Source: Candidatus Nitrosopumilus sp. (GTDB taxonomy: Archaea; Thermoproteota; Nitrososphaeria; Nitrososphaerales; Nitrosopumilaceae). Taken from it: 55,471 bases of DNA. Positions 3,289 to 43,154 of this stretch are shown here, piece after piece. Position 1 is the stretch's first letter. Each line of letters starts with the position of its first letter. The notes below the pieces were generated by a model. The model was not told the origin of the DNA and did not search any database. It worked only from the letters and a program-made list of their open reading frames with translations. A program made the translations under genes and the position numbers. The stretch spans positions 1 through 55,471 of the forward strand of contig JAOMJV010000005.1 of the NCBI GenBank assembly GCA_028351415.1. The letters run 5' to 3'.

Positions 3289-4227
3289 ATGAAAGTAATT
3301 CTTTTAGCTGCAGGAATTGGAACTCGATTACTTCCAATTACTGAATCATTACCAAAATCTATGATAGAGATTGCAGGAAAACCTATTTTGGAATATATTT
3401 TAGATGATCTAATTATTTCTGGATTTGATGATTTTTGTATTGTTGTAGGACATCATGCCAATCAAATTAAAAATTATTTTAAAAATTGGAATAAATCTGG
3501 AATTAAAATTACTTTTGTTACACAAAATAGTCTATCTGGTACTGCTGATGCAGTTAATTGTGCTAAAAATTTTGTTCATAATGAAAAATTTTTAGTGTAT
3601 CTTTCAGATACATTAATTCCTAATTTACCAAATATTTTGAAAATGATAAAAAATAATGATGGTGATGTTTCATTAATCTCTTCTCAAAATTATAGTAATC
3701 CTAGTAACAGTATAGGTAATATTGTAACTAGTGATAATATTGTTACACATATTTCAGAAAAATCTAATATTTCTAATTCTGTTTTAGCATGGGCTGGAAT
3801 TGCATCCTTCAATGATAATTCTATATTTAAAATAATTAAAAAATTGAATTTATCTAAAACTGGTGAATATGATATTACTGAAGCATTGAATTTGATGTTA
3901 AAAAATGAAAAAACAATTCAGAATTTTACATGTGATAAATTCATAGATTGTGGAACTTTAGATGGACTTTTGAATGGGTTGTCTTTTATTATTTCAAAAA
4001 TTTCAAATGATTCAAAAATCCAAAATTTATCCTATGTTTCTAATGATTGTATTTTAGGAACAAATGTTACTATTGAACAAAATGTTTCAATTGGTAAAAA
4101 TTGTAGTATTGGAAATAACGTAAGTTTATCTGATTGCATAATTTTGAGTAATACTTCTATTGGTAATGACAAAAAAATAAAACATAAAGTAATTGGAGGT
4201 GCTAAAATTCTAAATGACTGCTCCTGA
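3289..4227 (+). CDS. Sugar-phosphate nucleotidyltransferase with left-handed beta-helix tail
   Basis: 312 residues. The N-terminal NTP-transferase domain starts with LLAAGIGTRLLP and the catalytic-loop Lys23 in LPKSM; Asp pairs for metal are seen at YLSDT and in IDCGT. The last 70 residues are hexapeptide repeats (NVTIEQNVSIGKNCSIGNNV) of a left-handed beta-helix. This resembles archaeal GlmU/RmlA-type enzymes that join a sugar-1-phosphate to an NTP. With gmhB, gmhA and hddA nearby but no separate hddC, it is a candidate guanylyltransferase for heptose-1-phosphate; this is inference. Its 3' end overlaps the next gene by 14 bases. Confidence 0.82.
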   Translation: MKVILLAAGIGTRLLPITESLPKSMIEIAGKPILEYILDDLIISGFDDFCIVVGHHANQIKNYFKNWNKSGIKITFVTQNSLSGTADAVNCAKNFVHNEKFLVYLSDTLIPNLPNILKMIKNNDGDVSLISSQNYSNPSNSIGNIVTSDNIVTHISEKSNISNSVLAWAGIASFNDNSIFKIIKKLNLSKTGEYDITEALNLMLKNEKTIQNFTCDKFIDCGTLDGLLNGLSFIISKISNDSKIQNLSYVSNDCILGTNVTIEQNVSIGKNCSIGNNVSLSDCIILSNTSIGNDKKIKHKVIGGAKILNDCS

Positions 4228-5035
4228 TAGACAAAATCTACTTCGTTTTGAACTATATCTAATTAAAAAAACATACCAATTATTTGGATTTAAAAAAATG
4301 TTAATGTTCATTATTGGTTTACCAACTGTATTATTTACAAAAAGAAATAGATCCGCATATAATTTTCTTGGAAAATGTATAATGACAATTAATAATAGAA
4401 AAATTACATGGAAACATACTGATATTGGATTTATTGATGAATTAATTCTAGATAAAATTTACATGCCTAATGATTCATTCCAAATAAAAGATGATTATGT
4501 TGTAGTTGATGCGGGTGCAAATGTTGGTGTATTTTCTCTTTTTGCGGCTTCATATGCAACTAATGGTAAAATAATTTCTATTGAAGCTGACAAGTATGAT
4601 TATAAAAGATTACAAGAGAATATTTCTGAAAATAATTTTAAAAATATTTTTTCAATTAATAAAGCATTAACTGATGAATCTGGTTATGTTTATCTTTCTG
4701 ATTCGGTTGTTCGAGAACCTTCAAATAAAAATTTTCATAAGGATAACTATATTTTTGAGGGTAAAGTTGAATCCATTTCTCCCGATGATTTAATAAAACA
4801 ATTTAAATTGAATCGAATTGATTTCTTAAAGTTAGATATTGAAGGGTCTGAATTCAAAATTTTTTCTAATCCGAATTGGCTAAAAATTGTTAGAATTATT
4901 TCTATGGAATTACATGCTGAATCAAATGATCCAAAAACATTAGAAATAAAAAAAACATTAGAAATTTTTAATTTTTCTGTGAATTTAATTAAAGATGGAA
5001 AAATCACTTATTGTTTTGCAATAAAACATGAATAA
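4214..5035 (+). CDS. FkbM family methyltransferase
   Basis: 273 residues, ATG start inside the previous gene (14-base overlap, likely translational coupling). The SAM-binding motif is VVDAGANVGVFSLFAA followed by ISIEAD, and the FkbM signature FLKLDIEGSEFKIF lies near residue 208. FkbM enzymes O-methylate small molecules and sugars; in glycan loci they usually methylate sugar hydroxyls. A short hydrophobic stretch near residues 28-42 (MLMFIIGLPTVLF) could bring it to the membrane. A second FkbM gene sits at 9686-10474. Confidence 0.85.
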   Translation: MTAPDRQNLLRFELYLIKKTYQLFGFKKMLMFIIGLPTVLFTKRNRSAYNFLGKCIMTINNRKITWKHTDIGFIDELILDKIYMPNDSFQIKDDYVVVDAGANVGVFSLFAASYATNGKIISIEADKYDYKRLQENISENNFKNIFSINKALTDESGYVYLSDSVVREPSNKNFHKDNYIFEGKVESISPDDLIKQFKLNRIDFLKLDIEGSEFKIFSNPNWLKIVRIISMELHAESNDPKTLEIKKTLEIFNFSVNLIKDGKITYCFAIKHE

Positions 5036-5052
5036 TTATGAAAAATAAAATA

Positions 5053-5061
5053 ACTAAATAC
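5053..5061 (+). promoter_or_regulatory. TATA-like box before the cupin gene
   Basis: The sequence actaaatac is centred 25 bases before ATG 5082, giving a leaderless start for the cupin and the reductase behind it. Confidence 0.4.
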
Positions 5062-5081
5062 ACCTAAACATTAGTTTTTTT

Positions 5082-5534
5082 ATGGTTGATTCAGAAATAA
5101 GATCTCACAAGCTAGAAGTACATCAAACTAAAGATATTTTGGATAAACATGTTAATGGATTCATGATTCCTGTTTGGAGAGATTGGGACAAAACAATTTC
5201 AGTCAAGCCTGAAATGGTGTATATGACAAGTGTTAATCCTGGAGAACGTAAAGGTCCTCACCTTCACAAAATCCGACACAGCTATTATGTTTGTATTAAA
5301 GGTAAAGTTGTATTTATTGCTAAAGATAATTCTGGTAATTATTTAGAAATTGAATCAAGTGAAAATAATCCTATACTAGTTGAAATTCCTAAAAATTATT
5401 CATCTGCACACATTAACCTATCAAAAGAACCAAGTATTATTATGGCATTAGTAAACCCATCATGGAAACCTGATAATCGTGATGAACATAATGTAACTTA
5501 TGATGATTATGATTGGACAAAATGGGACAAATAG
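5082..5534 (+). CDS. RmlC-like cupin, sugar epimerase/isomerase (WxcM/FdtA type)
   Basis: 150 residues forming a single cupin. The metal/substrate motif GERKGPHLHKIRHSYY and the second motif HINLSKEP are visible, and the C-terminus NPSWKPDNRDEHNV is typical of dTDP-4-dehydrorhamnose 3,5-epimerase-like cupins. Such proteins epimerise C3/C5 or isomerise a 4-keto sugar nucleotide. It precedes a reductase of the RmlD class by a few bases, so the two probably act in sequence on a 4-keto sugar. A true RmlC is encoded separately at 28876-29436, so this one likely serves another sugar. Confidence 0.75.
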   Translation: MVDSEIRSHKLEVHQTKDILDKHVNGFMIPVWRDWDKTISVKPEMVYMTSVNPGERKGPHLHKIRHSYYVCIKGKVVFIAKDNSGNYLEIESSENNPILVEIPKNYSSAHINLSKEPSIIMALVNPSWKPDNRDEHNVTYDDYDWTKWDK

Positions 5535-5539
5535 ATTTA

Positions 5540-6439
5540 ATGAAAAAAAAACTTTTAATTATTGGCGGTGCAAGCTTAATTGGTTCTACCATAATTAATG
5601 AATTCAAAAATGATTATGATATTCATTTAACTTACAATAAAACTCCAGTGAATTCTAATTTTTCTCAAACTAAATTAAATTTATTAGATGAACGCAATCA
5701 AATTTCTTCAGTAATAAGTAATCTTAATCCTGATGTTGTAGTAAATACTGTAGCTTATCCAAATGTTGATTTTTGTGAAACACATCATGATGAAGCAAAT
5801 TTGTTACATGTTTCAATTACTGATGATCTGGTTTCAGTATGTAGTGATATTTCATCTCCTTTAGTTTATTTTTCTACTGACGCAGTATTTGATGGAACCA
5901 AATCTATAAAATATACTGAAGATGATATTACATCTCCATTAAGCTACTATGGAAAAACTAAACGTGATGCTGAAAAAATAATTTTAAACATAAATGAAAA
6001 TATTGTTTTGAGAACTACTGTTGTTTATGATTGGCATATTAGATCCAGATTTACCAATTGGGTTTTAAAAAATTTAAAACAAGGAAGTAAAATTACTGCT
6101 TTTACTGATCAATCAAACACTGCTACCCTTGCAGGTGATATTTCTCATTCTCTTTTCTGTCTTTTAGACCAACATCATTCTGGTTTATTTCATTGTGCTG
6201 GTAAAACATGCCTTTCTAGGTATGATTTTGCTATAAAATTAGCTGATTATTTTGGATATGATAAAAAATTGATAATTCCTACAATTTCTAAAAATACACA
6301 GTCTGCATCAAGACCAGAAAATGGTTGTCTTGATTCATCAAAACTAGAAGAATTAATTAATTTTAAATTATCTAATATTGATCAAGGAATAACATCCATG
6401 ATAAATTCATCAAAAACTATTCCAGATATTTTTCTATAA
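5540..6439 (+). CDS. RmlD-like 4-keto-sugar nucleotide reductase
   Basis: About 299 residues from ATG 5540; an in-frame ATG at 5513 would add nine residues but overlaps the cupin gene, and the later start puts the Rossmann strand (KKLLIIGGASLIGS) at the N-terminus as expected. The SDR catalytic set is FSTDAVFDG and YYGKTKRDAE (Tyr-x3-Lys). The family reduces 4-keto groups, as RmlD does for dTDP-rhamnose. Its 3' end overlaps the convergent gmhB gene by 23 bases. Together with the cupin it could finish a 6-deoxy sugar or 6-deoxyheptose. A nine-A run directly follows the start codon. Confidence 0.8.
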   Translation: MKKKLLIIGGASLIGSTIINEFKNDYDIHLTYNKTPVNSNFSQTKLNLLDERNQISSVISNLNPDVVVNTVAYPNVDFCETHHDEANLLHVSITDDLVSVCSDISSPLVYFSTDAVFDGTKSIKYTEDDITSPLSYYGKTKRDAEKIILNINENIVLRTTVVYDWHIRSRFTNWVLKNLKQGSKITAFTDQSNTATLAGDISHSLFCLLDQHHSGLFHCAGKTCLSRYDFAIKLADYFGYDKKLIIPTISKNTQSASRPENGCLDSSKLEELINFKLSNIDQGITSMINSSKTIPDIFL

Positions 6440-6899
6440 TTTTTTTAATAGAATCTGATTTCTTAACTAATACTCCCGTACATCCTGCATGATTTGCTGC
6501 TTCGATATCTGTATCTGAATCCCCAAACATAATACTTTTTTTTAAATCAATTTGAAATTCTTTTGCTGCCTTTAATATCATTCCTGCTTTAGGTTTTCTA
6601 CATTCACAATTTTCATCTGGTCTGTGTGGACAAAAATAAATTCTGTCTATTTTTGCATTTTGTTTTTTAGCTTCTTTGATAAGATGATTATGAATTTCAC
6701 TTAATTTATTTTCTGTAATAATTTTTCTATTGATTGCAGATTGATTTGTAATTACTATGACTAGATACCCTTTTGAATTAATAATTTTTATTGTATCAAA
6801 AATTTCATTAATTAAAATAAATTCTTCAATTGTTTTCACATAATCTTTTCTTTCTACATTGATTATTCCATCTCGATCTAAAAAAATAGCTTTATTCAT
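6417..6899 (-). CDS. gmhB: D,D-heptose 1,7-bisphosphate 7-phosphatase (HAD-IIIA)
   Basis: About 160 residues if started at ATG 6899, which puts AIFLDRDG (nucleophile and acid/base Asp) at residues 4-11; an upstream in-frame ATG at 6926 would overlap gmhA. Thr/Ser motif VITNQS, the zinc loop CPHRPDENCECRKPK (Cys-x-His, Cys-x-Cys) and MFGDSDTDIEAA complete the GmhB signature. The enzyme removes the C7 phosphate of heptose-1,7-bisphosphate in the cytoplasm. It follows gmhA with one base between, after hddA, giving three consecutive heptose steps in one leftward operon. Confidence 0.85.
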   Translation of the reverse strand: MNKAIFLDRDGIINVERKDYVKTIEEFILINEIFDTIKIINSKGYLVIVITNQSAINRKIITENKLSEIHNHLIKEAKKQNAKIDRIYFCPHRPDENCECRKPKAGMILKAAKEFQIDLKKSIMFGDSDTDIEAANHAGCTGVLVKKSDSIKKIIEKYLE

Positions 6900-6900
6900 T

Positions 6901-7485
6901 TTAATATTCAAACATTGGTTTGCCATTTGATCTAATCAAAGTAGTTAGTAGATGACAAATTAACAAATGACCTGTTTCGATTGTCAACATATCATTATCA
7001 TCAATATTCAAATTATATTTTGAAATTTTAGCTAATTTACCCCCACTTCCACCAGTAAAGCTAATTGTAGTTGAATCTACTTTATTTGCAAATTCAAATG
7101 CTTTGATCACATTTTTTGAATTACCACTACCGCTGAATCCAATTACGATATCCCCTTTTTTTAGTGAATTTTTTAATTGACCTAAGAAAATATTTTCATA
7201 ACCTTCGTCATTTGCCCATGCTAAAATCACTGGTATATTGTCTGTAAGTGAATAAGCACTAAACCTATTTTCATTTTCTACTATGCTAGTTTTTAACAAA
7301 TCTGCTGTAAAATGGGATGCTGTTGATGCACTCCCACCATTACCCATTAAGAAAATATTCTTTTTTAAATTTCTTGCATTAAGTAAATTATTGTATATTT
7401 GATTTATCTTGTCAGTTGATTCATTCAAAGATTCAATGAAATTTATTTGCTTATCTAAATAATTTTGAATTTTAGATTTATCCAT
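6901..7485 (-). CDS. gmhA: Phosphoheptose isomerase (sedoheptulose-7-phosphate isomerase)
   Basis: 194 residues, single SIS domain, full GmhA length. MGNGGSASTASHF at residues 47-59 and GFSGSGNSKNV are the phosphate-binding loops, and ETGHLLICHLL carries the conserved His residues. The enzyme turns sedoheptulose-7-phosphate into heptose-7-phosphate, the first step of nucleotide-activated heptose synthesis. It lies between hddA and gmhB in the order of the pathway. DnaA-initiator-associating DiaA and other SIS proteins are alternatives, but the operon partners argue strongly for GmhA. Confidence 0.88.
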   Translation of the reverse strand: MDKSKIQNYLDKQINFIESLNESTDKINQIYNNLLNARNLKKNIFLMGNGGSASTASHFTADLLKTSIVENENRFSAYSLTDNIPVILAWANDEGYENIFLGQLKNSLKKGDIVIGFSGSGNSKNVIKAFEFANKVDSTTISFTGGSGGKLAKISKYNLNIDDNDMLTIETGHLLICHLLTTLIRSNGKPMFEY

Positions 7486-7505
7486 AATTTATCAAATTTT
7501 ACTAT

Positions 7506-8516
7506 CTATAAATTACTTACATCAAATGTTTGAGCCCCATGATTAGTATACTCAAATTCTACATTACGTAATCCTAATTTTGATATTTTATCAAGAATTT
7601 TTTTATGTTTATTTTTTGGTGCAAAAACATAGATGTGACCTCCTCCGCCTGCACCTGTAACTTTAAATGATTCAGCACCATAATTTTTTAATTTTTTTGT
7701 GATATTTTCTATTCGATCATTTGTAACTCCTTTAGTAAATTTCTTTTTTGTTTCCCATCCTTCATTTAATATGTCAGAAAAATTTGATAAATCATTTTGG
7801 CGAAGTGCATCATATAACATTAAAGTTAATTCTTTTGCATGATGTAATGCATCAATAGTATTTTTTTTTGATTGATTTATTGCACTAATTTGTCTATTCA
7901 GAATTTTTTCTGAATGTTTTCTATCTCCTAAATATAATAACATTGAATTTTCAAGTAATTCATTATTTGTTGATTTTGTTAATTTAATTTTTTTAACCGT
8001 TACTTTTTCTTTTGTAAATTTATAGAGATTTAATCCTCCATAAACTGATGCAAATTCATCTTGTTTCCCTACACCCCATTTTAAAATATCATGACCTATA
8101 TGGTATGCTTTTTCAGCTATTTCATTTGATGTAAGTTTATTTTTTTGTAATGTTGATACAACTTTTACGATATTACTTGTTAGTGATGATGATGCCCCTA
8201 ATCCTGAATTAGGAGGAACATCGGTACTAAGATAAATATCTACACCTTTTTTAAATTTTAATTCTTTTAAACTTTGAATTACAATTTCATGTCCTTGTAT
8301 TGAATTAGTTTTTCTATATTCCGTTGGTGGTAAATATGATGCAAAATCCGGTGAAAATCCTTGTAATTTTTTATCTTGTCTTAGTTTTGCCATTACATAT
8401 GTAAATTTGTTAATTGTTGATGATATTGAATATCCAGTATATTTTGAATGATATTCTTCTAAATCTGTTCCCCCTCCAGAAAAACTAATTCTTAGTGGTG
8501 CCCTTCCAATAATCAT
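7506..8516 (-). CDS. hddA: D,D-heptose 7-phosphate kinase (GHMP family)
   Basis: 336 residues. The N-terminal APLRISFSGGGTDLEEY is the HddA/FKP-type GHMP opening; the ATP loop is PPNSGLGASSSL near residue 102, and the C-terminal motif is VTGAGGGGHIYVF. HddA-type kinases phosphorylate the anomeric C1 of heptose-7-phosphate for the GDP-heptose branch, unlike HldE of the ADP-heptose branch. Other sugar kinases of this family (fucokinase, mevalonate-like) are possible, but gmhA and gmhB follow directly. It is the first gene of the leftward operon; ttatat-like DNA lies about 24 bases upstream of its ATG. Confidence 0.85.
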   Translation of the reverse strand: MIIGRAPLRISFSGGGTDLEEYHSKYTGYSISSTINKFTYVMAKLRQDKKLQGFSPDFASYLPPTEYRKTNSIQGHEIVIQSLKELKFKKGVDIYLSTDVPPNSGLGASSSLTSNIVKVVSTLQKNKLTSNEIAEKAYHIGHDILKWGVGKQDEFASVYGGLNLYKFTKEKVTVKKIKLTKSTNNELLENSMLLYLGDRKHSEKILNRQISAINQSKKNTIDALHHAKELTLMLYDALRQNDLSNFSDILNEGWETKKKFTKGVTNDRIENITKKLKNYGAESFKVTGAGGGGHIYVFAPKNKHKKILDKISKLGLRNVEFEYTNHGAQTFDVSNL

Positions 8517-8627: not shown

Positions 8628-9677
8628 ATGGGAAATATTTCAGATACAAAATTTGAAAATTTTGTAAGTATTGTAATTATGAATTATAATGGACTAGATT
8701 ATATCTTAAATTGTTTAGACTCTGTATTTAAAACAAAGGGCTGTAGATTTGAAGTTATTTTAATAGATAATAATTCTAATGACAATAGTCACAGAATTTG
8801 TAAAGAAAATTTTTCGGAAATTCGCCTTTTTGAAAATAAAGAAAATTTAGCAATGGCAGCTCGAAATATTGGAATTAATAACGCTAAAGGCGAATTTATT
8901 GTATTTTTGGACTCTGATGCTACAGTTGATCCAAATTGGTTACAACATTTAGTATTAAGATATCAAAATAATGGTGAAGGATTGTATCAAGGCAAAATTT
9001 TAGAACAAAATAAATCTAATTTTATTGGTAGTTCTGGAAATTTTATGAATATTTTTGGATTAGGATTTGCTCGTGGTAATGGTAAAAAAGATGTAGGTCA
9101 ATTTGAAAAATTTCAACAAATTAGTTTTCCTGTAGGTGCATGTTTGTTTTCTTCTCTTGAAACTATTAAAAAAATTGGATATTTTGATGAATCAAATTTA
9201 CTATACTTAACTTACGATGATGTTGATTATGGATGGAAAGCATTATCATTAGGAATTCATTCATTTTATGAACCAAGATCTATTATTTATCATCCTGAAG
9301 GAACAAGTTCAAAGCTTAATTCCTATAAAATTCATTTAATTGAAAGAAACAGATGGATTTGTCTATTATCATATTACACCCCTAAAACCATTTTAAAATT
9401 ACTTCCTGTATTTTTTCTACTTGAGTTTGGAATATTCTTTTTTTTACTTGTGAAAGGGAATGGAATAGCAAAAATAAAATCACTTTTTTCAATAATTACA
9501 ATGTACAATTCAATTAAAAATAGAAGAATTTTATTAAATAAAAACAAAAAACTTTCTGATCATGAAATGATAGAATCTTTTGTAGATACTATAGAAATTC
9601 CTAGAAATCTAAACTCAGGCTCAGTTTTTAATAATATCATAATAAAACTTAGTAAAATTGCACGCAATTTGATTTAA
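8628..9677 (+). CDS. Family 2 glycosyltransferase (rhamnosyltransferase-like)
   Basis: 349 residues. The GT-A domain begins with VSIVIMNYNGLDYI, continues with LIDNNSNDNS and has the DxD metal site in FLDSDATVD; the acceptor-side motif YLTYDDVDYGWKA and the HPEGTSS end of the domain are typical of the WcaA/RfbF-like group. A hydrophobic segment at about residues 258-278 (LLPVFFLLEFGIFFFLLV) would anchor it to the membrane facing the cytoplasm. Donor and acceptor are unknown. It is divergently arranged with hddA and converges on the second FkbM gene. Confidence 0.88.
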   Translation: MGNISDTKFENFVSIVIMNYNGLDYILNCLDSVFKTKGCRFEVILIDNNSNDNSHRICKENFSEIRLFENKENLAMAARNIGINNAKGEFIVFLDSDATVDPNWLQHLVLRYQNNGEGLYQGKILEQNKSNFIGSSGNFMNIFGLGFARGNGKKDVGQFEKFQQISFPVGACLFSSLETIKKIGYFDESNLLYLTYDDVDYGWKALSLGIHSFYEPRSIIYHPEGTSSKLNSYKIHLIERNRWICLLSYYTPKTILKLLPVFFLLEFGIFFFLLVKGNGIAKIKSLFSIITMYNSIKNRRILLNKNKKLSDHEMIESFVDTIEIPRNLNSGSVFNNIIIKLSKIARNLI

Positions 9678-12222: not shown

Positions 12223-13041
12223 ATGAAAAATATACTATCTATTGATTTAGAGGATTATTTTTGTGATCTTCCATTTTCTTCATGGTCAAATTATACTAGT
12301 CGCGTAGTACCAACTACAGAAATCATATTGGAACTTTTAACGAAATACAAAGTTAGCGCTACATTTTTTACATTAGGTTCCATTGCTGAACAATTTCCTG
12401 AACTTATTGAAAAAATTGTTTCACTTGGACATGAAATTGCTAGTCATGGTTATTCTCATCTAGATCTTAGAAAAATTAACAAAGATATTTTAGAAAATGA
12501 AATAAAAAAATCTATTATTTTACTAGAAAAAATTAGTGGTGAAAAAATTAATGGTTTTCGAGCTCCATTTTTTTCTATTTCACGGAATAATTTGGATAGT
12601 TTTGATATAATTCAAAAATACTTCAAATATGATTCTAGCATTTTTCCTGCAAAAACTCCTTTGTATGGTATTCCTAGTGCACCTAGATTTCCTTATAGAT
12701 TTTCATCAAATCATCCATTAGAAAAAAATCCAAATGGTAAATTGTTGGAACTACCTCCTGCAACTCTAAAAATACCTCTTTATGGAAATCTCCCTATTGC
12801 TGGTGGTTTTTATCTACGATTTTTACCTTTATCACTAATTAAATATGGAATCAACAAATTAAATAAAATTGAAGAATCTGCAATGTTCTACATTCATCCA
12901 AAAGATTTAGATGTTAACATGCCTAAAATTGATTCATACAGCTGGCACTACTATTATAATTTAAAAAATGGCAAGAAAAAATTTGAATCTCTTCTAAAAA
13001 ATTTTAAATTTTCCTCGGTTCGAGACACATATTTGTTTTAA
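12223..13041 (+). CDS. Polysaccharide deacetylase (NodB homology domain)
   Basis: 272 residues. LSIDLEDYF gives the catalytic/metal Asp pair, ATFFTLGSIAE and the HxxxH motif in ASHGYSHLDLR give the metal histidines, and GFRAPFFSIS supplies the conserved Arg. The extended C-terminus with GGFYLRFLPLSLIKYGI and FYIHPKDLD resembles the DUF3473-bearing deacetylases of exopolysaccharide loci. The enzyme removes N-acetyl groups from amino sugars in an oligosaccharide or lipid-linked precursor. There is no signal peptide, so it acts in the cytoplasm. Confidence 0.88.
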   Translation: MKNILSIDLEDYFCDLPFSSWSNYTSRVVPTTEIILELLTKYKVSATFFTLGSIAEQFPELIEKIVSLGHEIASHGYSHLDLRKINKDILENEIKKSIILLEKISGEKINGFRAPFFSISRNNLDSFDIIQKYFKYDSSIFPAKTPLYGIPSAPRFPYRFSSNHPLEKNPNGKLLELPPATLKIPLYGNLPIAGGFYLRFLPLSLIKYGINKLNKIEESAMFYIHPKDLDVNMPKIDSYSWHYYYNLKNGKKKFESLLKNFKFSSVRDTYLF

Positions 13042-13706: not shown

Positions 13707-14051
13707 TTACCAAATTATGGTTGTTGTTGCAACAGAATAACTCTTTTCATGAGAAATTGATATTTCAATTTTTTTACATTTAATTTTTTTACAAGTTAAT
13801 ATTGGTTCTCCTAAATCACCATGATTTGTATGAATTTCTATCATGGGGATTAATTTTCGTGAAGCTTTTTGAAATGATTCTTTGACAGCAAATTTTCCTG
13901 CAAAATGTGGATATGGATCTTTAAATTTTAAACAATATTCAATTTCTTTAGAATTAAAATTTTTTTTATAAAAATAATTTTCATCATCATATGGAATATC
14001 TCTAAACCGTTTAACTTCTACGATATCTATTCCTGTTGTTATGGAAACCAA
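13707..14051 (-). CDS. acpS: Holo-[acyl-carrier-protein] synthase (4'-phosphopantetheinyl transferase)
   Basis: 114 residues from a TTG at 14049-14051; no in-frame ATG precedes the first conserved residues. TTGIDIVEVKRF supplies the metal-binding Asp, and KFAVKESFQKA is the AcpS Lys-Glu motif. The size suits the homotrimeric AcpS class, a little short at the C-terminus. The enzyme moves phosphopantetheine from CoA onto the Ser of an acyl carrier protein, and the only ACP in view is the divergent neighbour starting 52 bases away. Archaea normally lack ACP-based fatty acid synthesis, which makes the pair unusual. Confidence 0.85.
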   Translation of the reverse strand: MVSITTGIDIVEVKRFRDIPYDDENYFYKKNFNSKEIEYCLKFKDPYPHFAGKFAVKESFQKASRKLIPMIEIHTNHGDLGEPILTCKKIKCKKIEISISHEKSYSVATTTIIW

Positions 14052-14102
14052 TCATCTTATTTTTTTTACTTTCATAATAAAATTTATGTATACAATCAAA
14101 AG

Positions 14103-14360
14103 ATGCTTTTTATGGATACATCTCAAGTTGATGAGCAATTAAAAGCAATTTTTCTTGATGTTTTTCAAGCAGAGCTCTCTGAAATTACATTTGATTGGGA
14201 AAAACAACAAAATGACTATGAAAATTGGGATTCTTTTGGTCATTTACGAATTGTTTCTGAAATTGAAGAAAAATTTGGAATAAAATTGGATATTGATGAT
14301 GTTATTTACATTACTAGCGCTTCGGGATTCCTTAAAATAATAAAAGATAAGATCAACTGA
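14103..14360 (+). CDS. Acyl carrier protein
   Basis: 85 residues (82 if started at the second ATG, 14112; a tttatgta box about 25 bases upstream of 14112 favours the shorter form). The phosphopantetheine site is Ser44 in ENWDSFGHLRIV, followed by EIEEKFGIKLDIDDV, the acidic helix that partners recognise. It is an ACP of the polyketide/peptidyl-carrier style rather than a fatty acid synthase AcpP, since the motif is DSF instead of DSL. It heads the ligase/LuxE/LuxC run and shares a short divergent promoter region with acpS, so its likely job is to hold an acyl or aminoacyl group made by the next gene. Confidence 0.88.
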   Translation: MLFMDTSQVDEQLKAIFLDVFQAELSEITFDWEKQQNDYENWDSFGHLRIVSEIEEKFGIKLDIDDVIYITSASGFLKIIKDKIN

Positions 14361-14363
14361 TAA

Positions 14364-15827
14364 ATGAAATCAATACATGAAATTCTTAATAATTCTGCAA
14401 AAGCCTTTCCTGACAAACCTGCAATAATATTTGAAAATAAACGATATTCTTATGATGAACTTTTTAACAAATCTCAATCTTTATCTAATTTTATTCAAGA
14501 AAAAACTACACCTGGAGATGTTGTATCAATTTTATATGAAAATTCTCCTTTTTTTATCATTTCTTATTTTTCTATTTTAAAATCTGGATGTATAGCTCAC
14601 ATTATTCCACCTGCAATATCTGACTTTAATTTAAAAGAACAAATCAAAGAAAGTAATCCTCAAATAATTTTAACTAATCATAATTTTGAACAAAAATTAA
14701 AGCGAACTCAACTCATTGAAAAAGCATTTTTTGTCGAAAGTGATTCTGATGTATTTAAATCCAATCATGATAATCTTTTTGAAGAAAAATTTTATGAAGT
14801 ATGCTCAATAATCTTTACCTCTGGAACTACATCGAAACCTAAAGGTGTAAAATTAACACATAAAAATATTCTAACTGCTACATCAAATATTGTAAAAATG
14901 ATTGATATACAAACAAATGATGTTGAAATAAATTCATTATCATTATCCCATTCATTTGGTTTAGGTTGTTTACATGCTATTTTCTTACAAAGTGCTACAG
15001 TCTTAATTTTTAAAAATACAATTAATCTCAAAGAAATTTTAAAATGTGGAAAAGAAGAAAATGCAACTGGTTTTGTTGGAGTTCCTGCAACTTTTTACCA
15101 AATAATAAATTCATTTACTGAATCACTTTCATCAATACAATCAATTCGTTATTTTTTAACAAACACAGCTCCAATGAAAAAAGAATCTATTTTAAAAATA
15201 ATTAATTTTTTTCCCAAATCAAATTTTTATACATATTATGGACTTACTGAAGCCTCACGTTCAACATTTTTATTATTTAATGATAATCTTGAAAAATTAG
15301 AATCTGTTGGTAAAACTCCATCTGGGGTAGAAATAAAAATTTTGGATGATGCTGGAAAAATTCTTGTTAATGATCAACTAGGAGAAATTTATATCAAAGG
15401 TGATCATGTAGTAGAAAATTATTGGAATAATGTAAAAGCAGACAAATCCATAGTAAATGGATGGCTTAAAACTGGTGATCTTGGATATTTTGATTCAGAT
15501 GGGTTTCTTTTCTTAAAAAGTAGAAAAGATGATTTGATTAATGTCGCCGGAGAAAAATTTGTTCCTGAAGAAGTTGAATTAGTAATAAAAGAAATTTCAG
15601 AAATTTCAGAAGCTGCAGTAATTGGTATTCCCAATGAACTTTTTGGTCAATTACCAATTGCATTTGTAGAAAAAAATAATGAAATTACGTCTAGTTTTAT
15701 TCTTAATTACTGCATTCAAAAATTAGAGAGATATAAAATTCCAACTAAAATCATATTTTTAGATGAAATTCCAAAAACTGATTCTGGAAAAATTAAAAGA
15801 AATATTTTAAAATCTAAATTTTCTTAA
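14364..15827 (+). CDS. AMP-dependent acyl/aminoacyl ligase (ANL superfamily)
   Basis: 487 residues, begins three bases after the ACP stop. The ANL core motifs are all present: IIFTSGTTSKPKGVKL (A3), YYGLTEASRS (A5), WLKTGDLGYFD (A7), KSRKDDLINVAGEK (A8) and the catalytic Lys in KTDSGKIKRNIL (A10). It activates a carboxylic acid as the adenylate and probably loads it on the adjacent ACP; CoA is the alternative acceptor. The substrate-binding pocket cannot be read reliably by eye. Length and motif spacing resemble the stand-alone ligases that pair with ACPs in polyketide or surface-glycan modification clusters. Confidence 0.88.
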   Translation: MKSIHEILNNSAKAFPDKPAIIFENKRYSYDELFNKSQSLSNFIQEKTTPGDVVSILYENSPFFIISYFSILKSGCIAHIIPPAISDFNLKEQIKESNPQIILTNHNFEQKLKRTQLIEKAFFVESDSDVFKSNHDNLFEEKFYEVCSIIFTSGTTSKPKGVKLTHKNILTATSNIVKMIDIQTNDVEINSLSLSHSFGLGCLHAIFLQSATVLIFKNTINLKEILKCGKEENATGFVGVPATFYQIINSFTESLSSIQSIRYFLTNTAPMKKESILKIINFFPKSNFYTYYGLTEASRSTFLLFNDNLEKLESVGKTPSGVEIKILDDAGKILVNDQLGEIYIKGDHVVENYWNNVKADKSIVNGWLKTGDLGYFDSDGFLFLKSRKDDLINVAGEKFVPEEVELVIKEISEISEAAVIGIPNELFGQLPIAFVEKNNEITSSFILNYCIQKLERYKIPTKIIFLDEIPKTDSGKIKRNILKSKFS

Positions 15828-15842
15828 GATACGTCTACAATT

Positions 15843-15851
15843 TTTAATACC
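15843..15851 (+). promoter_or_regulatory. TATA-like box before the LuxE-like gene
   Basis: The sequence tttaatacc is centred 27 bases before ATG 15874. LuxE- and LuxC-like genes may therefore be transcribed separately from, as well as together with, the ACP and ligase genes. Confidence 0.4.
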
Positions 15852-15873
15852 CTGAATAATAACAAGAAATAGA

Positions 15874-16968
15874 ATGAGTGAAAATATTGATAAATTAATA
15901 AAAATTGACCCTTATTCATTAATTCCTGAAGAAAAAAATTCTCTTTTTATAAAATGTATTTCTGAATCCATTAAATTTCATTATGAAAATTGTATTGAAT
16001 ACAAAAATTATTGTAAAAAAAAGAATTTTCATCCTGACAATATTATAGATCTATCTAGTATTCCATATTTACCTGTAGATATTTTTAAAAAAATAACTTT
16101 ACTATCTGTTCCAAAATCTGAAATTATTAAAATACTAAAATCAAGTGCAACTACAAGTAATCTTCCAAGTGTAATTCATTTAGATAAAAAAACTGCAAAT
16201 AGACAAATGATTTCATTAAATTCAATTATTCGTAATTTTTTAGGAGATGAAAAAATGAATTTTATTATTTTAGATAATAAAAAAAGTCTAGAAAGTACTG
16301 ATGGCAATTTATCTTCTCGAGGTTCTGCAATTAGAGGTATGTTAATCTTTGCAAAAAAATTTACATGTATTTTAGATGAAAATTTAAAAATAGATTCAAA
16401 AATTCTTTCTAAATTAGAAAACAATATAGATTCAAAAACATGTATTTTTGGTTTTACATGGGTTATTCATAAAATTTTAACCGAAAATAAAAATAACAAA
16501 ATTGTTAAAAACTTCTTATCCCATCTTTCCCAATCTTCTATCTTACATATTGGAGGCTGGAAAAAACTAACTGATTTATCAATAGATAAAAAACAATTTA
16601 ATTCTGAGTGTTCTAATTTTTTTAATACTGATAAGGACAAAGTAGTTGATCTATATGGAATGACTGAACAATTAGGTATTGTATATCCTGACTGTGAATA
16701 CGGATACAAACATGTTCCGGTTTTTTCAGAAATTTTAATTCGTAATACTCATTCACTTGAGGTTCAAAATGACGGAGAAACTGGATTTATTCAAGTAATT
16801 AGCCCTATTCCAAACAGCTACCCTGGAATTTCTTTACTTACTGATGATCTTGGTGAAATTTTAGGTAGGGATAATTGTCCTTGTGGACGGAAAGGAACTT
16901 ATTTTATTTTTAAGAAAAGATCTGAGATGGCAGATCCAAAAGGATGTGGGGATACTATTGAAATTTAA
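15874..16968 (+). CDS. LuxE-like acyl-protein synthetase
   Basis: 364 residues, about the length of LuxE. The ANL-like features VVDLYGMTEQLGIVYP, the SSATTSNLPS phosphate loop, LLTDDLGEIL and a Cys-x-Cys segment in DNCPCGRKGTYF are typical of acyl-protein synthetases. Cys358 near the C-terminus sits where LuxE of luminous bacteria carries its acyl-cysteine. LuxE activates a fatty acid with ATP and passes it to LuxC. No luxA, luxB or luxD is present, so light production is excluded. Here it may accept the acyl group from the ACP, or activate a second acid. Confidence 0.82.
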   Translation: MSENIDKLIKIDPYSLIPEEKNSLFIKCISESIKFHYENCIEYKNYCKKKNFHPDNIIDLSSIPYLPVDIFKKITLLSVPKSEIIKILKSSATTSNLPSVIHLDKKTANRQMISLNSIIRNFLGDEKMNFIILDNKKSLESTDGNLSSRGSAIRGMLIFAKKFTCILDENLKIDSKILSKLENNIDSKTCIFGFTWVIHKILTENKNNKIVKNFLSHLSQSSILHIGGWKKLTDLSIDKKQFNSECSNFFNTDKDKVVDLYGMTEQLGIVYPDCEYGYKHVPVFSEILIRNTHSLEVQNDGETGFIQVISPIPNSYPGISLLTDDLGEILGRDNCPCGRKGTYFIFKKRSEMADPKGCGDTIEI

Positions 16969-18244
16969 GCATATTTTTTCAGATGGTATATCACATGAAA
17001 ATCTAGAAGATGATTTAGAATCATTAATTGTTAATCTAAAATCCAAAAAGGAATGGCTGCATTCTCAAAAAATCGATGATCTCATAGAATTTTTTGATTC
17101 TTTGGGGACATCTTGGAAAAATTCTAACGAATATTTTGGAAATAATTTAAAACATCTTTCTGAATTTTTGTCTAGAGATAACTTGGAAAAAGAATTAAAA
17201 CTTTCACTTAGAGGAAATTTTTCAGTTCTTGACGAATTTATTCCTCTATTTGATATTCCTGATTCTCTATATCATGCACAACCTAGAGGCATCTCTGTTC
17301 ATTGGATAGCAGGTAATGTGGATATTCTGGGAATTTTTTCAGTGGTTCAATCTTTATTGACAAAAAATCTTTGTCTTATCAAGGCACCTCATGATTATTC
17401 ACTTTTAAAAAAATTACTTTTAAGTTTCAAAGATGTTTCTACTGAAAAAATATCTGGTCAGGATTTATTGAATTGTATTACATTAGTTTATGTTGAACGT
17501 GATGACTTGGTCAACCAAGAGATTTTATCTAAAAATGCTGATATTAGAATAGCTTGGGGAGGAGATGAAGCAGTATCTACAATACTTTCACTAAAAAAGA
17601 ATTTCTTTACTGAGGATATTATTTATGGACCAAAATATTCTTATGCAATTTTAGATTCAGAATTTTTAGAAAATAATCTAAAGAATGCTGCTCAAAGATT
17701 GGCATTTGATGTTAGTATATTTGATCAAAATGCCTGTAATTCTCCACATACAATTTTTGTAGAAAATAATGATTCAGATAATCCCAACCTTGTAAAGGAT
17801 TTTGCTAAAGAACTTTCAAATTCAATGGAAACTGTAAATCGTTTAATGCTTCCTAAATCCGAAATATCTGAAAAAAAATCTATGGACATTTTGTCTCTTA
17901 GAGCTGAATATGATTTTAAAGGTGAAGTTTTTGCACCAAAAAATACTGACTGGACTGTAATTTATTCAGAAGATGAAGGTTTAGCAAATCCTTGCTTTTC
18001 TAGAGTTGTTTTTATAAAACCTATTAAGAATGCCGAAGACATAGGAAAATTTCATAATAGAAAAATTCAATCTATTGGGCTAGGGATTTCAGATCTTGAG
18101 AAACGAAAAAAATTAATTGATTTAGTGACTATGCTTGGTGGAGACAGATGTCCTTCAATAGGAAGTATGAGTAAATTTCAATCCCCTTGGGATGGTATTT
18201 TTGGAATGGATAGAATGGTAAGATGGATTTCTATGACTAGGTAG
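16958..18244 (+). CDS. LuxC-like acyl reductase (acyl-CoA/acyl-protein to aldehyde)
   Basis: About 428 residues from the TTG at 16958, which overlaps the LuxE-like stop by 11 bases. GTG 16946 and ATG 16883 are in-frame alternatives; the ATG would overlap by 86 bases and add a tail that mirrors the antiparallel reading of LuxE, so it is less likely. The LuxC family features are GNVDILGIFSVVQSLL, IRIAWGGDEAV and the catalytic Cys in FDQNACNSPH (about residue 260). LuxC reduces a thioester-bound acyl group with NADPH to an aldehyde. Overlap with the LuxE-like gene implies a working complex, as in bacteria. Confidence 0.83.
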   Translation: MKFKHIFSDGISHENLEDDLESLIVNLKSKKEWLHSQKIDDLIEFFDSLGTSWKNSNEYFGNNLKHLSEFLSRDNLEKELKLSLRGNFSVLDEFIPLFDIPDSLYHAQPRGISVHWIAGNVDILGIFSVVQSLLTKNLCLIKAPHDYSLLKKLLLSFKDVSTEKISGQDLLNCITLVYVERDDLVNQEILSKNADIRIAWGGDEAVSTILSLKKNFFTEDIIYGPKYSYAILDSEFLENNLKNAAQRLAFDVSIFDQNACNSPHTIFVENNDSDNPNLVKDFAKELSNSMETVNRLMLPKSEISEKKSMDILSLRAEYDFKGEVFAPKNTDWTVIYSEDEGLANPCFSRVVFIKPIKNAEDIGKFHNRKIQSIGLGISDLEKRKKLIDLVTMLGGDRCPSIGSMSKFQSPWDGIFGMDRMVRWISMTR

Positions 18245-20085: not shown

Positions 20086-21522
20086 ATGACTAAAGTATTA
20101 CTAGTGAATCCTCCATTTTATCGTTTTTTAAATTCTCACTATAATGCAAATTCTTTGGGTATTGCTTATGTCGCATCTTACCTTAATTCGCGTGGACATG
20201 ATGCATGGTTGTATAATGCTGATTTCTTAAATAATGAAACTTTTCTTAATCAAAAAAATTTGTTTAAAGGATTTGTTGATTATAAAAAATTTTTTAAAGA
20301 TACAAATCATGAAATTTGGCAAGAAATTGTTGACAAGATAATTGCATTTGAACCTGAATGGGTTGGATACACTTCCTATACTGCAAATATCACTGCAATT
20401 GATATAATTTCAAAAAAAATTAAAAATTTAGATCCTTCTATTAAACAAGTAATTGGAGGTGTACATGCAACTTTAGATCCTTTAATACTGGATAAATTAA
20501 CTTCTATTGATTATAGTGTTCAACGAGAAGGGGAACATGCTATGTCTGATCTTATAGATGGAAAAGATCCAATAAAAATTTCTGGTGTTGTATCTCGAAG
20601 TGAGTCTGGACTAATTAATAATTTTGATGCAGATGTAATACCTGACATAGATAATCTTCCATTTCCTGAAAGAGATAAATTTTGGGGATTATCTGATGAA
20701 GAAAAATTAATGGTTGACGTATCTTACATTTGCAGTATTCGTGGTTGTCCCTATCGATGTAATTACTGTGCTTCTCCTGAACACTGGAAACGAAATAAAA
20801 CACAATATCGTTCTCCAAAATCTCTTGTCAATGAAATGCGCCATGTGAAAGAAAATTATTGGAACCGAAAAAAAGAATTTGATTATAGTGCATCTGCAAA
20901 TACAAAATCAAAAAATGAATTAATAATTAAAGATAATTCAACCGTTTATTTTGTTGATGATATTTTTACTGTACATAAAGAAAGAATTAAAGAAATTTTA
21001 CAAAGAATTATCACTGAAAATTTTGGAATGAAATGGAAATGTGAGGCACGAACTGATCATTTAGATGAAGAAATTTGTCAACTAATGGCTAAAGCTGGAT
21101 GTATTCGTGTAAAAATTGGATTTGAATCTGGGAGTGACAGAATTTTAAAATCAATTCAAAAAGATGAAACAACTGATGATATGCGCAAAGGTGCAAAGAT
21201 GTTAAAAGATGCAGGTGTGCCATTTACTGGCTATTTTATGATTGGATTTCCTGATGAAACTGATGATGATGTACGTGAAACAATCAAATTTGCCAAAGAA
21301 ATTGATGCTGATTACTATTCCTTATCTGTATTAGCTCCATACTTTGGAACTAAAACATATTATGATATGATTGATAAAGGATTTGAATTAGATAAAAAAC
21401 CTTGGGAATATTTTTTTCATCAGACAGGAGATTTGATGGTAAACAAAAATATTTCTGAAAAAGTTTTAGAAGAATATCTTGCTCTAAATGAATTAAACAA
21501 TAATAAAAAAGGATATGTTTAG
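20086..21522 (+). CDS. B12-binding-domain radical SAM protein
   Basis: 478 residues. Residues 1-150 form the cobalamin-binding-like domain (VLLVNPPFYRFL, SLGIAYVASYL, QVIGGVHATLDP); no DxHxxG is seen, so any cobalamin would be bound base-on or not at all. The radical SAM core follows with the iron-sulfur motif CPYRCNYC (Cys-x3-Cys-x2-Cys) in ICSIRGCPYRCNYCASPEHW, then IKIGFESGSDRILKSIQK and GYFMIGFPDETDDD. A Lys/Asn-rich insertion (about residues 265-285) breaks the core between strands. Members of this class methylate or rearrange lipids, sugars and peptides. Its position suggests an unusual C-methylation or epimerisation in the glycan; the reaction is unknown. Confidence 0.85.
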   Translation: MTKVLLVNPPFYRFLNSHYNANSLGIAYVASYLNSRGHDAWLYNADFLNNETFLNQKNLFKGFVDYKKFFKDTNHEIWQEIVDKIIAFEPEWVGYTSYTANITAIDIISKKIKNLDPSIKQVIGGVHATLDPLILDKLTSIDYSVQREGEHAMSDLIDGKDPIKISGVVSRSESGLINNFDADVIPDIDNLPFPERDKFWGLSDEEKLMVDVSYICSIRGCPYRCNYCASPEHWKRNKTQYRSPKSLVNEMRHVKENYWNRKKEFDYSASANTKSKNELIIKDNSTVYFVDDIFTVHKERIKEILQRIITENFGMKWKCEARTDHLDEEICQLMAKAGCIRVKIGFESGSDRILKSIQKDETTDDMRKGAKMLKDAGVPFTGYFMIGFPDETDDDVRETIKFAKEIDADYYSLSVLAPYFGTKTYYDMIDKGFELDKKPWEYFFHQTGDLMVNKNISEKVLEEYLALNELNNNKKGYV

Positions 21523-21555: not shown

Positions 21556-22479
21556 TTAAGATAATTTTTTAAAAAAGTCACCTTGATTTACTTTGCCCTC
21601 ATAATCTGTTATTAGCAATGATCCTTCATTACATTTTACAACTAAATCCCCTGTTGGGAATTTCTCTACAACTTGACCTAATTTTGTATTGGAAAAAATA
21701 ATTTTTGTATCGAATGGCTGTGCTTTCCAGATCATTATTTTCTGTTTATTAATAAATGAGAATGCTCCTGGATATGGTTTGGTTAAAGCTTTCACAAAAT
21801 TATGTATATTTGTAAGTGAATTATCCCAATTAATTTGACCTTCTTCAGGAGTTCTTTTTGGATAAAAAGATGGATCACCTGATTGTGGGATTCTTGAAAA
21901 ATTATTTAAAAATATTGCCGGAATAAGTTCAAGCAATGATTGTTTTAGAACTAATGAAATTTTATAGTAGATAGTTTGACATGTATCCCATTCATTAATA
22001 TCAAAAGTTTGATGAAATATAATGTCACCATCATCTATGCCTGGAGTAAGAAGGAATAATTGTAATATGAATTGTTTTTTGCCTTCAATAATGGACCAAT
22101 TTACTGGAGCTCTACCCCTTCCCTTTGGTAACAATTCAGAACTTCCATGAAAACCAATTCCAGTAATATTTAATGTAGATAAAATTTTTTCAGGAATTAG
22201 ACGTTGCCATCCACAAACAAGTAATAAATCAAATTTTTCCTTCTCAAAAAAATCACTATCTTTCTGGCTTTTCATAGAAAAAAGTTCTGGATAATAAATT
22301 GGAATATTGTATTTTTTAGATAACTCTTCAAATGATTTGTACCCTGAAATTTTTAATTTACTTGCTTGTTCTGGTCTTATGGATATGAAATAAGAAATTT
22401 TGATACCATTAATCAATAGAAAATCAGCAATATCATATCCGGCTTCACTGCAACTACATAAAACAATTTTTTTATTCAT
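21556..22479 (-). CDS. Formyltransferase family protein (probable sugar N-formyltransferase)
   Basis: 307 residues. GFHGSSELLPKGRGRAPVNW contains the formyl-transfer His and the Pro-Lys-Gly-Arg-Gly loop, and LTPGIDDGDIIFHQ provides the catalytic Asp of the Fmt/ArnA fold. A C-terminal OB-like subdomain follows from about residue 220. It uses N10-formyl-tetrahydrofolate. The sequence is shorter and different in context from initiator-tRNA formyltransferase, which archaea do not need. It is co-oriented with and 19 bases downstream of a PIG-L deacetylase gene, so the two probably convert an N-acetyl amino sugar to an N-formyl one. Confidence 0.82.
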   Translation of the reverse strand: MNKKIVLCSCSEAGYDIADFLLINGIKISYFISIRPEQASKLKISGYKSFEELSKKYNIPIYYPELFSMKSQKDSDFFEKEKFDLLLVCGWQRLIPEKILSTLNITGIGFHGSSELLPKGRGRAPVNWSIIEGKKQFILQLFLLTPGIDDGDIIFHQTFDINEWDTCQTIYYKISLVLKQSLLELIPAIFLNNFSRIPQSGDPSFYPKRTPEEGQINWDNSLTNIHNFVKALTKPYPGAFSFINKQKIMIWKAQPFDTKIIFSNTKLGQVVEKFPTGDLVVKCNEGSLLITDYEGKVNQGDFFKKLS

Positions 22480-22498
22480 TTTAGTTCAAAAATATAAT

Positions 22499-23206
22499 TT
22501 ATACATATAATCTATTGATATGATAGGCTTCAGCATATTCTAATCCAATTTCGTTACCTCTTATTTTTGCTAATGAAAACAAACTTTCTCCTCCACGTTG
22601 ACTTTCTCTCATTTGTGTTGAATACATATTCAAAATTTCACTTTTTTTTGTTATTTCATTTTTGTCTAGATTTAGATAAAAGTTTGGTTGAAATCTACCA
22701 AATTCAGAATATGCAGACCAGAAATAATATTCAGGAGATTCATATGATAATATCAATTGTGGCATATGTGTAGTTTTTTGTGGATGTGGTCTTAATGCAG
22801 TTATTGCAATTTTATAAGCAGTTGTATGATCTTGATGTGAAGAAAAAATTGTAGGTATTGCAACTATTGTGGGTTTAATTTTAGCGATTGAAATTTTACT
22901 TTTAGATTCTATATGCTTAATTAATTCTTCTTGAGGTTTTGAGTCAATATGTTGCATTTCATAGTTAGTATATGCAATATCATAATCATCTATTCCCAAA
23001 GCTTGAGAAACTTTAATTAATTCTTGAGTCCACTCTTCTTTTGTTATTCTTTCTCCTTCTATTTTCTCATATCCACCTAATGTCAAAATTTGAACGAATA
23101 CTTTGCCACCATTATCTTTTACTTTTTTTATCAAACCATAACAACCTAAAATTTCATCATCTGCATGAGGTGCAATAATCAATAACGTTTCTTTTTTGAA
23201 TTCCAT
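22499..23206 (-). CDS. PIG-L/LmbE family deacetylase
   Basis: 235 residues. LLIIAPHADDEILGCYG is the zinc-binding AHPDDE-type motif (here PHADDE), with the third ligand in IFSSHQDHTTAYK. The protein is soluble and of typical family length. Family members remove the acetyl group from GlcNAc in GPI, mycothiol and bacillithiol precursors and from antibiotic sugars. Because a formyltransferase gene follows immediately, the free amine is likely formylated next. A role in a thiol cofactor is a less likely alternative, since no mycothiol or bacillithiol partner genes are present. Confidence 0.85.
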   Translation of the reverse strand: MEFKKETLLIIAPHADDEILGCYGLIKKVKDNGGKVFVQILTLGGYEKIEGERITKEEWTQELIKVSQALGIDDYDIAYTNYEMQHIDSKPQEELIKHIESKSKISIAKIKPTIVAIPTIFSSHQDHTTAYKIAITALRPHPQKTTHMPQLILSYESPEYYFWSAYSEFGRFQPNFYLNLDKNEITKKSEILNMYSTQMRESQRGGESLFSLAKIRGNEIGLEYAEAYHINRLYV

Positions 23207-26362: not shown

Positions 26363-26896
26363 CTAATGTTCAATTTTTTTTATTATTCTTGCAGGATTTC
26401 CTGCAACTACACAATAATCAGGAATGTCATTAGTAACCACACTGCCAACTGCAACTATTGAATTTTCTCCTATTGTAATTCCTGCTGTAATTATACATCC
26501 TGGATTAATCCATGCTCCAGATTTAATAATTACGGGCTTTACTTGTCGAGGATATTTTTCAGTTTTTAAAAACTCATTTGTTCCAATATTAACATGAGCA
26601 AAGATCATTGTATTACTTCCTATTGCAACATTATCGCCAATAGAAATTTGACCTGGATATAACCAATCAAGCTGAACATATGGTGAAATATGACAATTTT
26701 CTCCTATTTTTATTCCTCTAGCTTTTTGCATAGATATTGTAATCCCTGGATGTGGGGATGAATATGCAATAGAATGTAAAATCCAAGATTTTAATAAATG
26801 AAGTTTTAATTGAAACTTACCAAACCTGCCAGAATATCCATAAAATTCCATTAACTCTTTTTCGTTAACTTCTAGACTATTTTTTTTATTTATCAT
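26363..26896 (-). CDS. Hexapeptide-repeat O-acetyltransferase (left-handed beta-helix)
   Basis: 177 residues. After an N-terminal helix the hexapeptide repeats run from about residue 60 to 150 (KIGENCHISPYVQLDW, ISIGDNVAIGSNTMIF, ITIGENSIVAVGSVVT), ending with DYCVVAGNPARIIKK, the WcaF/maltose acetyltransferase hallmark. Catalytic His is likely in IFAHVNIG. It uses acetyl-CoA to O-acetylate a sugar, probably in the same glycan. It lies between the DPM-like glycosyltransferase and rmlD, transcribed leftward. Confidence 0.85.
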   Translation of the reverse strand: MINKKNSLEVNEKELMEFYGYSGRFGKFQLKLHLLKSWILHSIAYSSPHPGITISMQKARGIKIGENCHISPYVQLDWLYPGQISIGDNVAIGSNTMIFAHVNIGTNEFLKTEKYPRQVKPVIIKSGAWINPGCIITAGITIGENSIVAVGSVVTNDIPDYCVVAGNPARIIKKIEH

Positions 26897-43127: not shown

Positions 43128-43154
43128 TAATTTTTGACAAAAATAACTAATAAC

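Follow-up and report, generated by a model that had tools for sequence, protein, structure and literature searches.

Five adjacent genes encoding an AcpS, an acyl carrier protein (ACP), an ANL ligase, a LuxE and a LuxC were found at positions 13707-18244 of contig JAOMJV010000005.1 of Candidatus Nitrosopumilus sp. (assembly GCA_028351415.1), within a surface-glycan island. The window, meaning the whole stretch of DNA analysed, comprises 55,471 nucleotides and is a single contig of a 1.07 Mb genome. We estimate a probability of about 55% that this cassette is the ACP-dependent acyl donor branch of the island, with LuxE and LuxC as a reductive arm acting on the acyl precursor. The evidence consists of the genes and their active-site residues, the same five-gene arrangement in two genera, and the co-occurrence of acpS with the gene of an LbH (hexapeptide) acyltransferase. 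Archaea are held to lack ACP, save for a few transfers from bacteria (PMC3533463). The set stands here in an ammonia-oxidiser-type archaeon and was previously known from bacterial sugar-coat gene clusters. What is new is a group of AcpS modules of three forms in the archaeal family and their near one-to-one pairing with one LbH subfamily.

Genes and active sites of the cassette

The original prediction, made from the DNA sequence alone, had placed five genes with family signatures here, and all five were confirmed by open reading frames (ORFs) and Pfam, with zero internal stops. The acpS gene (13707-14051, minus strand, TTG start) encodes an AcpS-type 4'-phosphopantetheinyl transferase of 114 aa. 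The other four genes are on the plus strand: acp (14103-14360; ACP of 85 aa, phosphopantetheine Ser44 in NWDSF), the ANL acyl-activating ligase gene (14364-15827; 487 aa), luxE (15874-16968; acyl-protein synthetase of 364 aa, acyl-transfer Cys358) and luxC (16946-18244; acyl-thioester reductase of 432 aa, catalytic Cys in FDQNAC). AcpS, LuxE and LuxC matched Pfam ACPS (PF01648; cut-off 25 bits), LuxE and LuxC with 41.6, 218 and 255 bits, respectively, and the ligase matched AMP-binding and AMP-binding_C with 217 and 54 bits, respectively. The genes are adjacent, as had been described, and two details of the layout were corrected. The acpS gene is on the opposite strand, divergent from acp across a gap of 51 bp. 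The longest luxC ORF begins at 16883, and GTG 16946 is the more likely start; from there luxC runs over the end of luxE, with an overlap of 23 nt here and of 20 nt in the second archaeal cassette, described below.

AcpS is of the short single-domain form with the GIDIV and KFAxKE motifs kept, and a PDB search with it returned AcpS structures. The ACP scored 19.9 bits against PP-binding, slightly below the cut-off of 20.8 bits. Its identity is nevertheless settled, because its AlphaFold model (mean pLDDT 86) shows the helices of an ACP and places Ser44 where helix 2 begins, the Geobacter ACP 2lml ranks first among its PDB matches both by sequence and by Foldseek on the model, and a 43%-identical homologue lies at the equivalent site in the second genome. 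The LuxE and LuxC proteins both matched the solved LuxC-LuxE complex 7xc6. In alignments, Cys358 in the KGC motif of LuxE fell on its KGC counterpart in the LuxE chain 7xc6_E, and the DQxAC cysteine of LuxC on the DQQAC cysteine of 7xc6_A. The catalytic residues, namely ACP Ser44, LuxE Cys358 and the Cys of FDQxAC in LuxC, are intact. In a motif alignment, the ligase has SHSFGLGC at the position of FDxS in amino-acid adenylation domains. Since FDxS is replaced, activation of an alpha-amino acid is disfavoured, and judging from this motif the substrate is probably a carboxylic acid without an alpha-amino group.

A second archaeal cassette

The identical five-gene arrangement, including the divergent acpS, was found in Centralia_MAG_78 (JAJPKL010000017.1), which belongs to another genus of the archaeal family. 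The proteins of the two cassettes are 41-52% identical (AcpS 41%, ACP 43%, LuxC 48%). In a draw of 400 genomes from the class, Centralia_MAG_78 had the sole further close homologue of LuxC, and a contig scan with patterns tailored to the LuxC proteins of these two archaea returned it alone. Other matches to PF05893 in the genus and order were weak (about 18-40 bits) and are probably putative aldehyde dehydrogenases. LuxC-family reductases were also seen in another family of the class (loci L026, 1207-2664; L027, 1153-2619; and L028). Those of L026 and L027 scored 108-117 bits, and ORFs of 307 and 388 aa without a Pfam match lie alongside in L026-L028.

Upstream of the Centralia_MAG_78 cassette are a Gfo/Idh-type oxidoreductase gene (by inspection) and a QdtB-like aminotransferase gene, and a QdtC-like LbH acyltransferase gene lies directly after luxC. 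This cassette looks like part of an N-acyl amino-sugar pathway. The patchy distribution of LuxE, with homologues in 2 of 250 species of the archaeal family, would suit an acquired bacterial passenger that has no function in the archaeon. We regard this as very improbable, for the two diverged copies retain their frames, active sites and arrangement, their ligases fall in an archaeal clade, and cassette and island have equal GC content. A recent passenger or a set of pseudogenes is likewise disfavoured by two intact, diverged copies.

AcpS modules and their acyltransferase

The ACP had been regarded as an oddity in these archaea, which did not hold: AcpS (PF01648) was found in 43 of 250 species of the family (about 17%, roughly one in six). 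For these species 40 neighbourhoods were retrieved, and modules were compared at 41 loci with an acpS ORF, the window and Centralia_MAG_78 being counted in. Three forms were found. The first (about 30 loci) comprises FkbH, ACP, a MaoC dehydratase or VOC protein, and AcpS. The second (six loci) has a divergent acpS with acp and a ligase gene; no acp ORF was called in L094, and the contig of L098 stops short of the ligase. The third, with ligase and luxE-luxC, was found in the window and Centralia_MAG_78 only. Within 5 kb of acpS, an LbH acyltransferase, a GT2 glycosyltransferase and a polysaccharide deacetylase were present at 32, 29 and 27 of the 41 loci, respectively. The loading enzymes vary among modules and these three neighbours are mostly constant. 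The FkbH-ACP-MaoC/VOC-AcpS modules (among L083-L120, about 30 species), which adjoin all three, are apparently an undescribed archaeal carrier-protein module. An NAD-synthase-like ATP pyrophosphatase was observed near the ligase-type acp modules of L089, L093, L094, L098, L100 and L107.

The LbH acyltransferase of the window (26363-26896, minus strand) belongs to a subfamily with 56-65% identical homologues in 44 of the 250 species. Across the 250 genomes, AcpS and this subfamily were both present in 37, AcpS alone in 6, the LbH protein alone in 7 and neither in 200 (Fisher p=8e-31, from counts that take no account of shared ancestry). An ABC permease of the same island, used as a control, showed no association with AcpS (4/22, p=0.54). 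Where AcpS and LbH genes were on one contig, 30 of 33 pairs lay within 6 kb. Among the six AcpS-positive, LbH-negative genomes, three had longer open frames (238-271 aa) that may encode another transferase type, and Centralia_MAG_78 had the QdtC-like LbH protein in place of the subfamily. This co-occurrence supports the link to glycan acylation that had been suggested for the cassette. Bacterial LpxA and LpxD use acyl-ACP, and by analogy the co-occurring LbH enzyme is predicted to be the probable natural user of acyl-ACP.

Proposed function

From these genes we infer the catalytic steps, the substrate, the sugar that accepts the acyl group and the point at which the aldehyde arises as follows. 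AcpS would attach phosphopantetheine to the ACP to give holo-ACP, and the ANL ligase would convert a carboxylic acid to acyl-AMP and load it onto the ACP. The LbH acyltransferase elsewhere in the island would then pass the acyl group from the ACP to a sugar, either as an N-acyl group on an amino sugar freed by a deacetylase or as an O-acyl group. LuxE would activate an acid as acyl-AMP, bind it as a thioester at Cys358 and hand it to the cysteine of LuxC; with NADPH, LuxC would then reduce the acyl thioester to an aldehyde. Most likely this aldehyde serves as an intermediate while the acyl group is built or altered. The view that a dedicated ACP points to a specialised pathway was supported. 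ACP-type fatty-acid synthesis was rejected, as the only trace of a ketoacyl-ACP synthase in the genome (78% complete) was a sub-threshold thiolase-like fragment.

The original prediction had the ligase load the ACP and LuxC reduce the acyl-ACP. In this chain the aldehyde would end up on a sugar, where it could form an alkylamine or an acetal, among other options. Thioester reduction is the established activity of LuxC enzymes, the ligase, ACP and LuxC genes are adjacent, and luxE and luxC overlap. As stated, this chain leaves LuxE without a role, and its reduction step would compete with the acyltransferase; for these two reasons a role of LuxE and LuxC in the acyl precursor is favoured. The last component of related modules is moreover an acyltransferase rather than a reductase, and the cassette in the window has no neighbouring gene for an enzyme dedicated to aldehyde use (aminotransferase or imine reductase). 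We consider the chain unlikely.

Several points weigh against the proposed acyl donor branch. Acylation accounts for the ACP and ligase and does not directly account for the LuxE/LuxC pair, and most acpS modules are without LuxE and LuxC. The LbH acyltransferase gene adjoins the cassette in Centralia_MAG_78 and on a Deinococcus plasmid; in the window it is 12.6 kb from acpS. The incompleteness of the genome also counts here, as does shared ancestry behind the co-occurrence counts, although the genes recur in several genera. Lastly, the ATP loop of both archaeal LuxE proteins reads SSATT instead of the usual SSGTT, and adenylation by them is uncertain on this residue change. With the acyl-transfer cysteine kept, the loop would fit a LuxE that acts as an ATP-independent shuttle, carrying the acyl group to LuxC from the ACP loaded by the ligase. 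Such a shuttle would account for the presence of two activating enzymes. However, a change of Gly to Ala need not abolish adenylation, and LuxE proteins of bacterial cassettes with equivalent partners retain SSGTTG, so that we hold such a shuttle to be improbable.

An acyl donor branch of this kind could belong to a general system of ACP-dependent glycan acylation in these archaea, for which we see about even chances. A constant core and exchangeable loading heads would then give strain-specific acyl groups on surface glycans. The core would consist of AcpS, ACP, the LbH acyltransferase, the polysaccharide deacetylase and GT2, and the heads would be FkbH with MaoC or VOC, the ANL ligase, and the ligase with LuxE/LuxC, the last being the rarest head and the one in the window. 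If true, a recurrent ACP module with a glycan acyltransferase in about 17% of the species of the family would define a non-lipid role for ACP in archaea. Carrier-protein chemistry would have a standing archaeal role outside lipid synthesis, and unusual acyl groups would be predicted on the surface glycans of these archaea.

Setting of the cassette

The glycan island contains heptose-type genes, dTDP-sugar genes, an O-antigen-type ABC exporter and numerous glycosyltransferase and methyltransferase genes, named mostly by inspection. A GT2 glycosyltransferase gene (8628-9677, plus strand) belongs to the subfamily that flanks acpS modules. An XrtA-type polysaccharide deacetylase with DUF3473 (12223-13041, plus strand) probably acts in the decoration pathway of the cassette. 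A PIG-L-type de-N-acetylase (22499-23206, minus strand; Pfam PIG-L 62.7 bits) could free an amino group for re-acylation. A formyltransferase gene adjoins it, and this pair (21556-23206) suggests deacetylation followed by N-formylation. A B12-binding radical SAM protein is encoded at 20086-21522. At 3289-8516, a nucleotidyltransferase, a GmhB-like HAD protein, a GmhA-like isomerase and an HddA-like GHMP kinase were recognised by inspection as a heptose-type set, which suggests NDP-heptose in an archaeal glycan.

The island adjoins the gene of an S-layer-like protein (43134-47870, plus strand; identified by inspection of the translation), which is a candidate glycan carrier; beyond it lie Rieske, cytochrome b and tRNA-Arg genes. 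Because of these flanking genes contamination is unlikely, and the contig is genuinely archaeal; a bacterial contaminant is rejected by the S-layer-like, Rieske and cytochrome b genes together with the archaeal ligase clade. No paper in the partial literature collection searched combined Nitrosopumilus, S-layer, glycosylation and acyl carrier protein.

Comparison with known systems

The cassette had been put forward as an undescribed system, and this has to be withdrawn: a closely similar set is known from bacterial flagellin glycosylation islands (FGIs) and was found on Deinococcus and Ponticoccus plasmids. The bacterial comparison covered plasmid records and two papers. Aeromonas Group II FGIs carry acp, 3-oxoacyl-ACP reductase, AMP synthetase, luxE and luxC (PMC7874193), and enterobacterial FGIs carry similar genes (PMC4875605); in both papers a liposugar is suggested. 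Like the window, these sets place ACP, ligase, LuxE and LuxC families in a variable surface-glycan island. Unlike them, the archaeal cassette lacks a short-chain dehydrogenase/reductase (SDR), has its own acpS and has an S-layer context. No FabG-like SDR was found among the cassette ORFs, and PF13561 SDRs are on other contigs of the genome.

The exopolysaccharide locus on a plasmid of Deinococcus sp. NW-56 (L123) has acp-SDR-ligase-luxE-luxC-acetyltransferase after sugar transferase genes. It shares with the archaea the order acp, ligase, luxE, luxC, and with Centralia_MAG_78 the LbH acyltransferase after luxC. It differs from the window in the SDR between acp and ligase, in having no acpS, and in a ligase of another clade that is distant from the archaeal one (90 bits). 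A Ponticoccus plasmid has acp-SDR-ligase-luxE with luxC two genes beyond, and a Rhizobium plasmid has a rearranged set with an LbH acyltransferase beside acp. On a Salmonella plasmid (CP054717.1; L044, 6563-12321), consecutive genes encode a LuxE, a protein of 802 aa that matches LuxC and has an AMP-binding annotation, a PaaK-like ligase and a GNAT acetyltransferase. No LuxE was found on viral contigs. The location of bacterial cassettes in exopolysaccharide or flagellin-glycan loci supports the glycan reading, and the recurrent archaeal ACP module, if that reading is true, offers a tractable route to the function of ACP/LuxE/LuxC sets in such bacterial islands. In the LuxE tree, the archaeal branch is sister to the LuxE proteins of bacterial glycan cassettes (support 80/86), with a common one-residue insertion (YGMxEQ) and GC[SG]D motif, and the LuxC proteins of both groups have a common two-residue deletion before DG. 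The archaeal ligases form their own clade, apart from the bacterial cassette ligases.

Luminous bacteria use LuxE and LuxC to make fatty aldehydes, and like luxCDABE fatty acid reductase (7xc6) the window has both families with their catalytic cysteines. The match to 7xc6 could point to production of a fatty aldehyde, alcohol or wax unconnected with the glycan island. We give this very little credence: no fatty-acid synthase was found in the genome, the gene set lies in glycan loci in the archaea and in most of the bacterial relatives that have it, and the archaeal LuxE groups with the glycan-cassette proteins and has their insertion. The window LuxE has low identity to that of luxCDABE and lies on another branch of the LuxE tree. 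Light production was rejected, in agreement with the original prediction, as luxA and luxB are absent from the cassette and luciferase-like proteins are encoded on other contigs only; no luxD was found in the genome by a search without a positive control. ACP, AcpS and the ANL ligase, in turn, are present in the window, unlike in luxCDABE.

The FkbH-ACP-MaoC/VOC-AcpS modules resemble the window in AcpS, ACP, LbH acyltransferase, polysaccharide deacetylase and GT2. They have no ligase, LuxE or LuxC, and their acyl group would be loaded by FkbH, a family with glyceryl-type chemistry. GmACP3 of Geobacter metallireducens (2lml; Ramelot 2011) is bacterial and has low identity to the window ACP, about 23%. 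It is the closest solved ACP by both sequence and fold and, like the window ACP, a specialised one, with a putative role in lipopolysaccharide biosynthesis as cited in PMC4847154.

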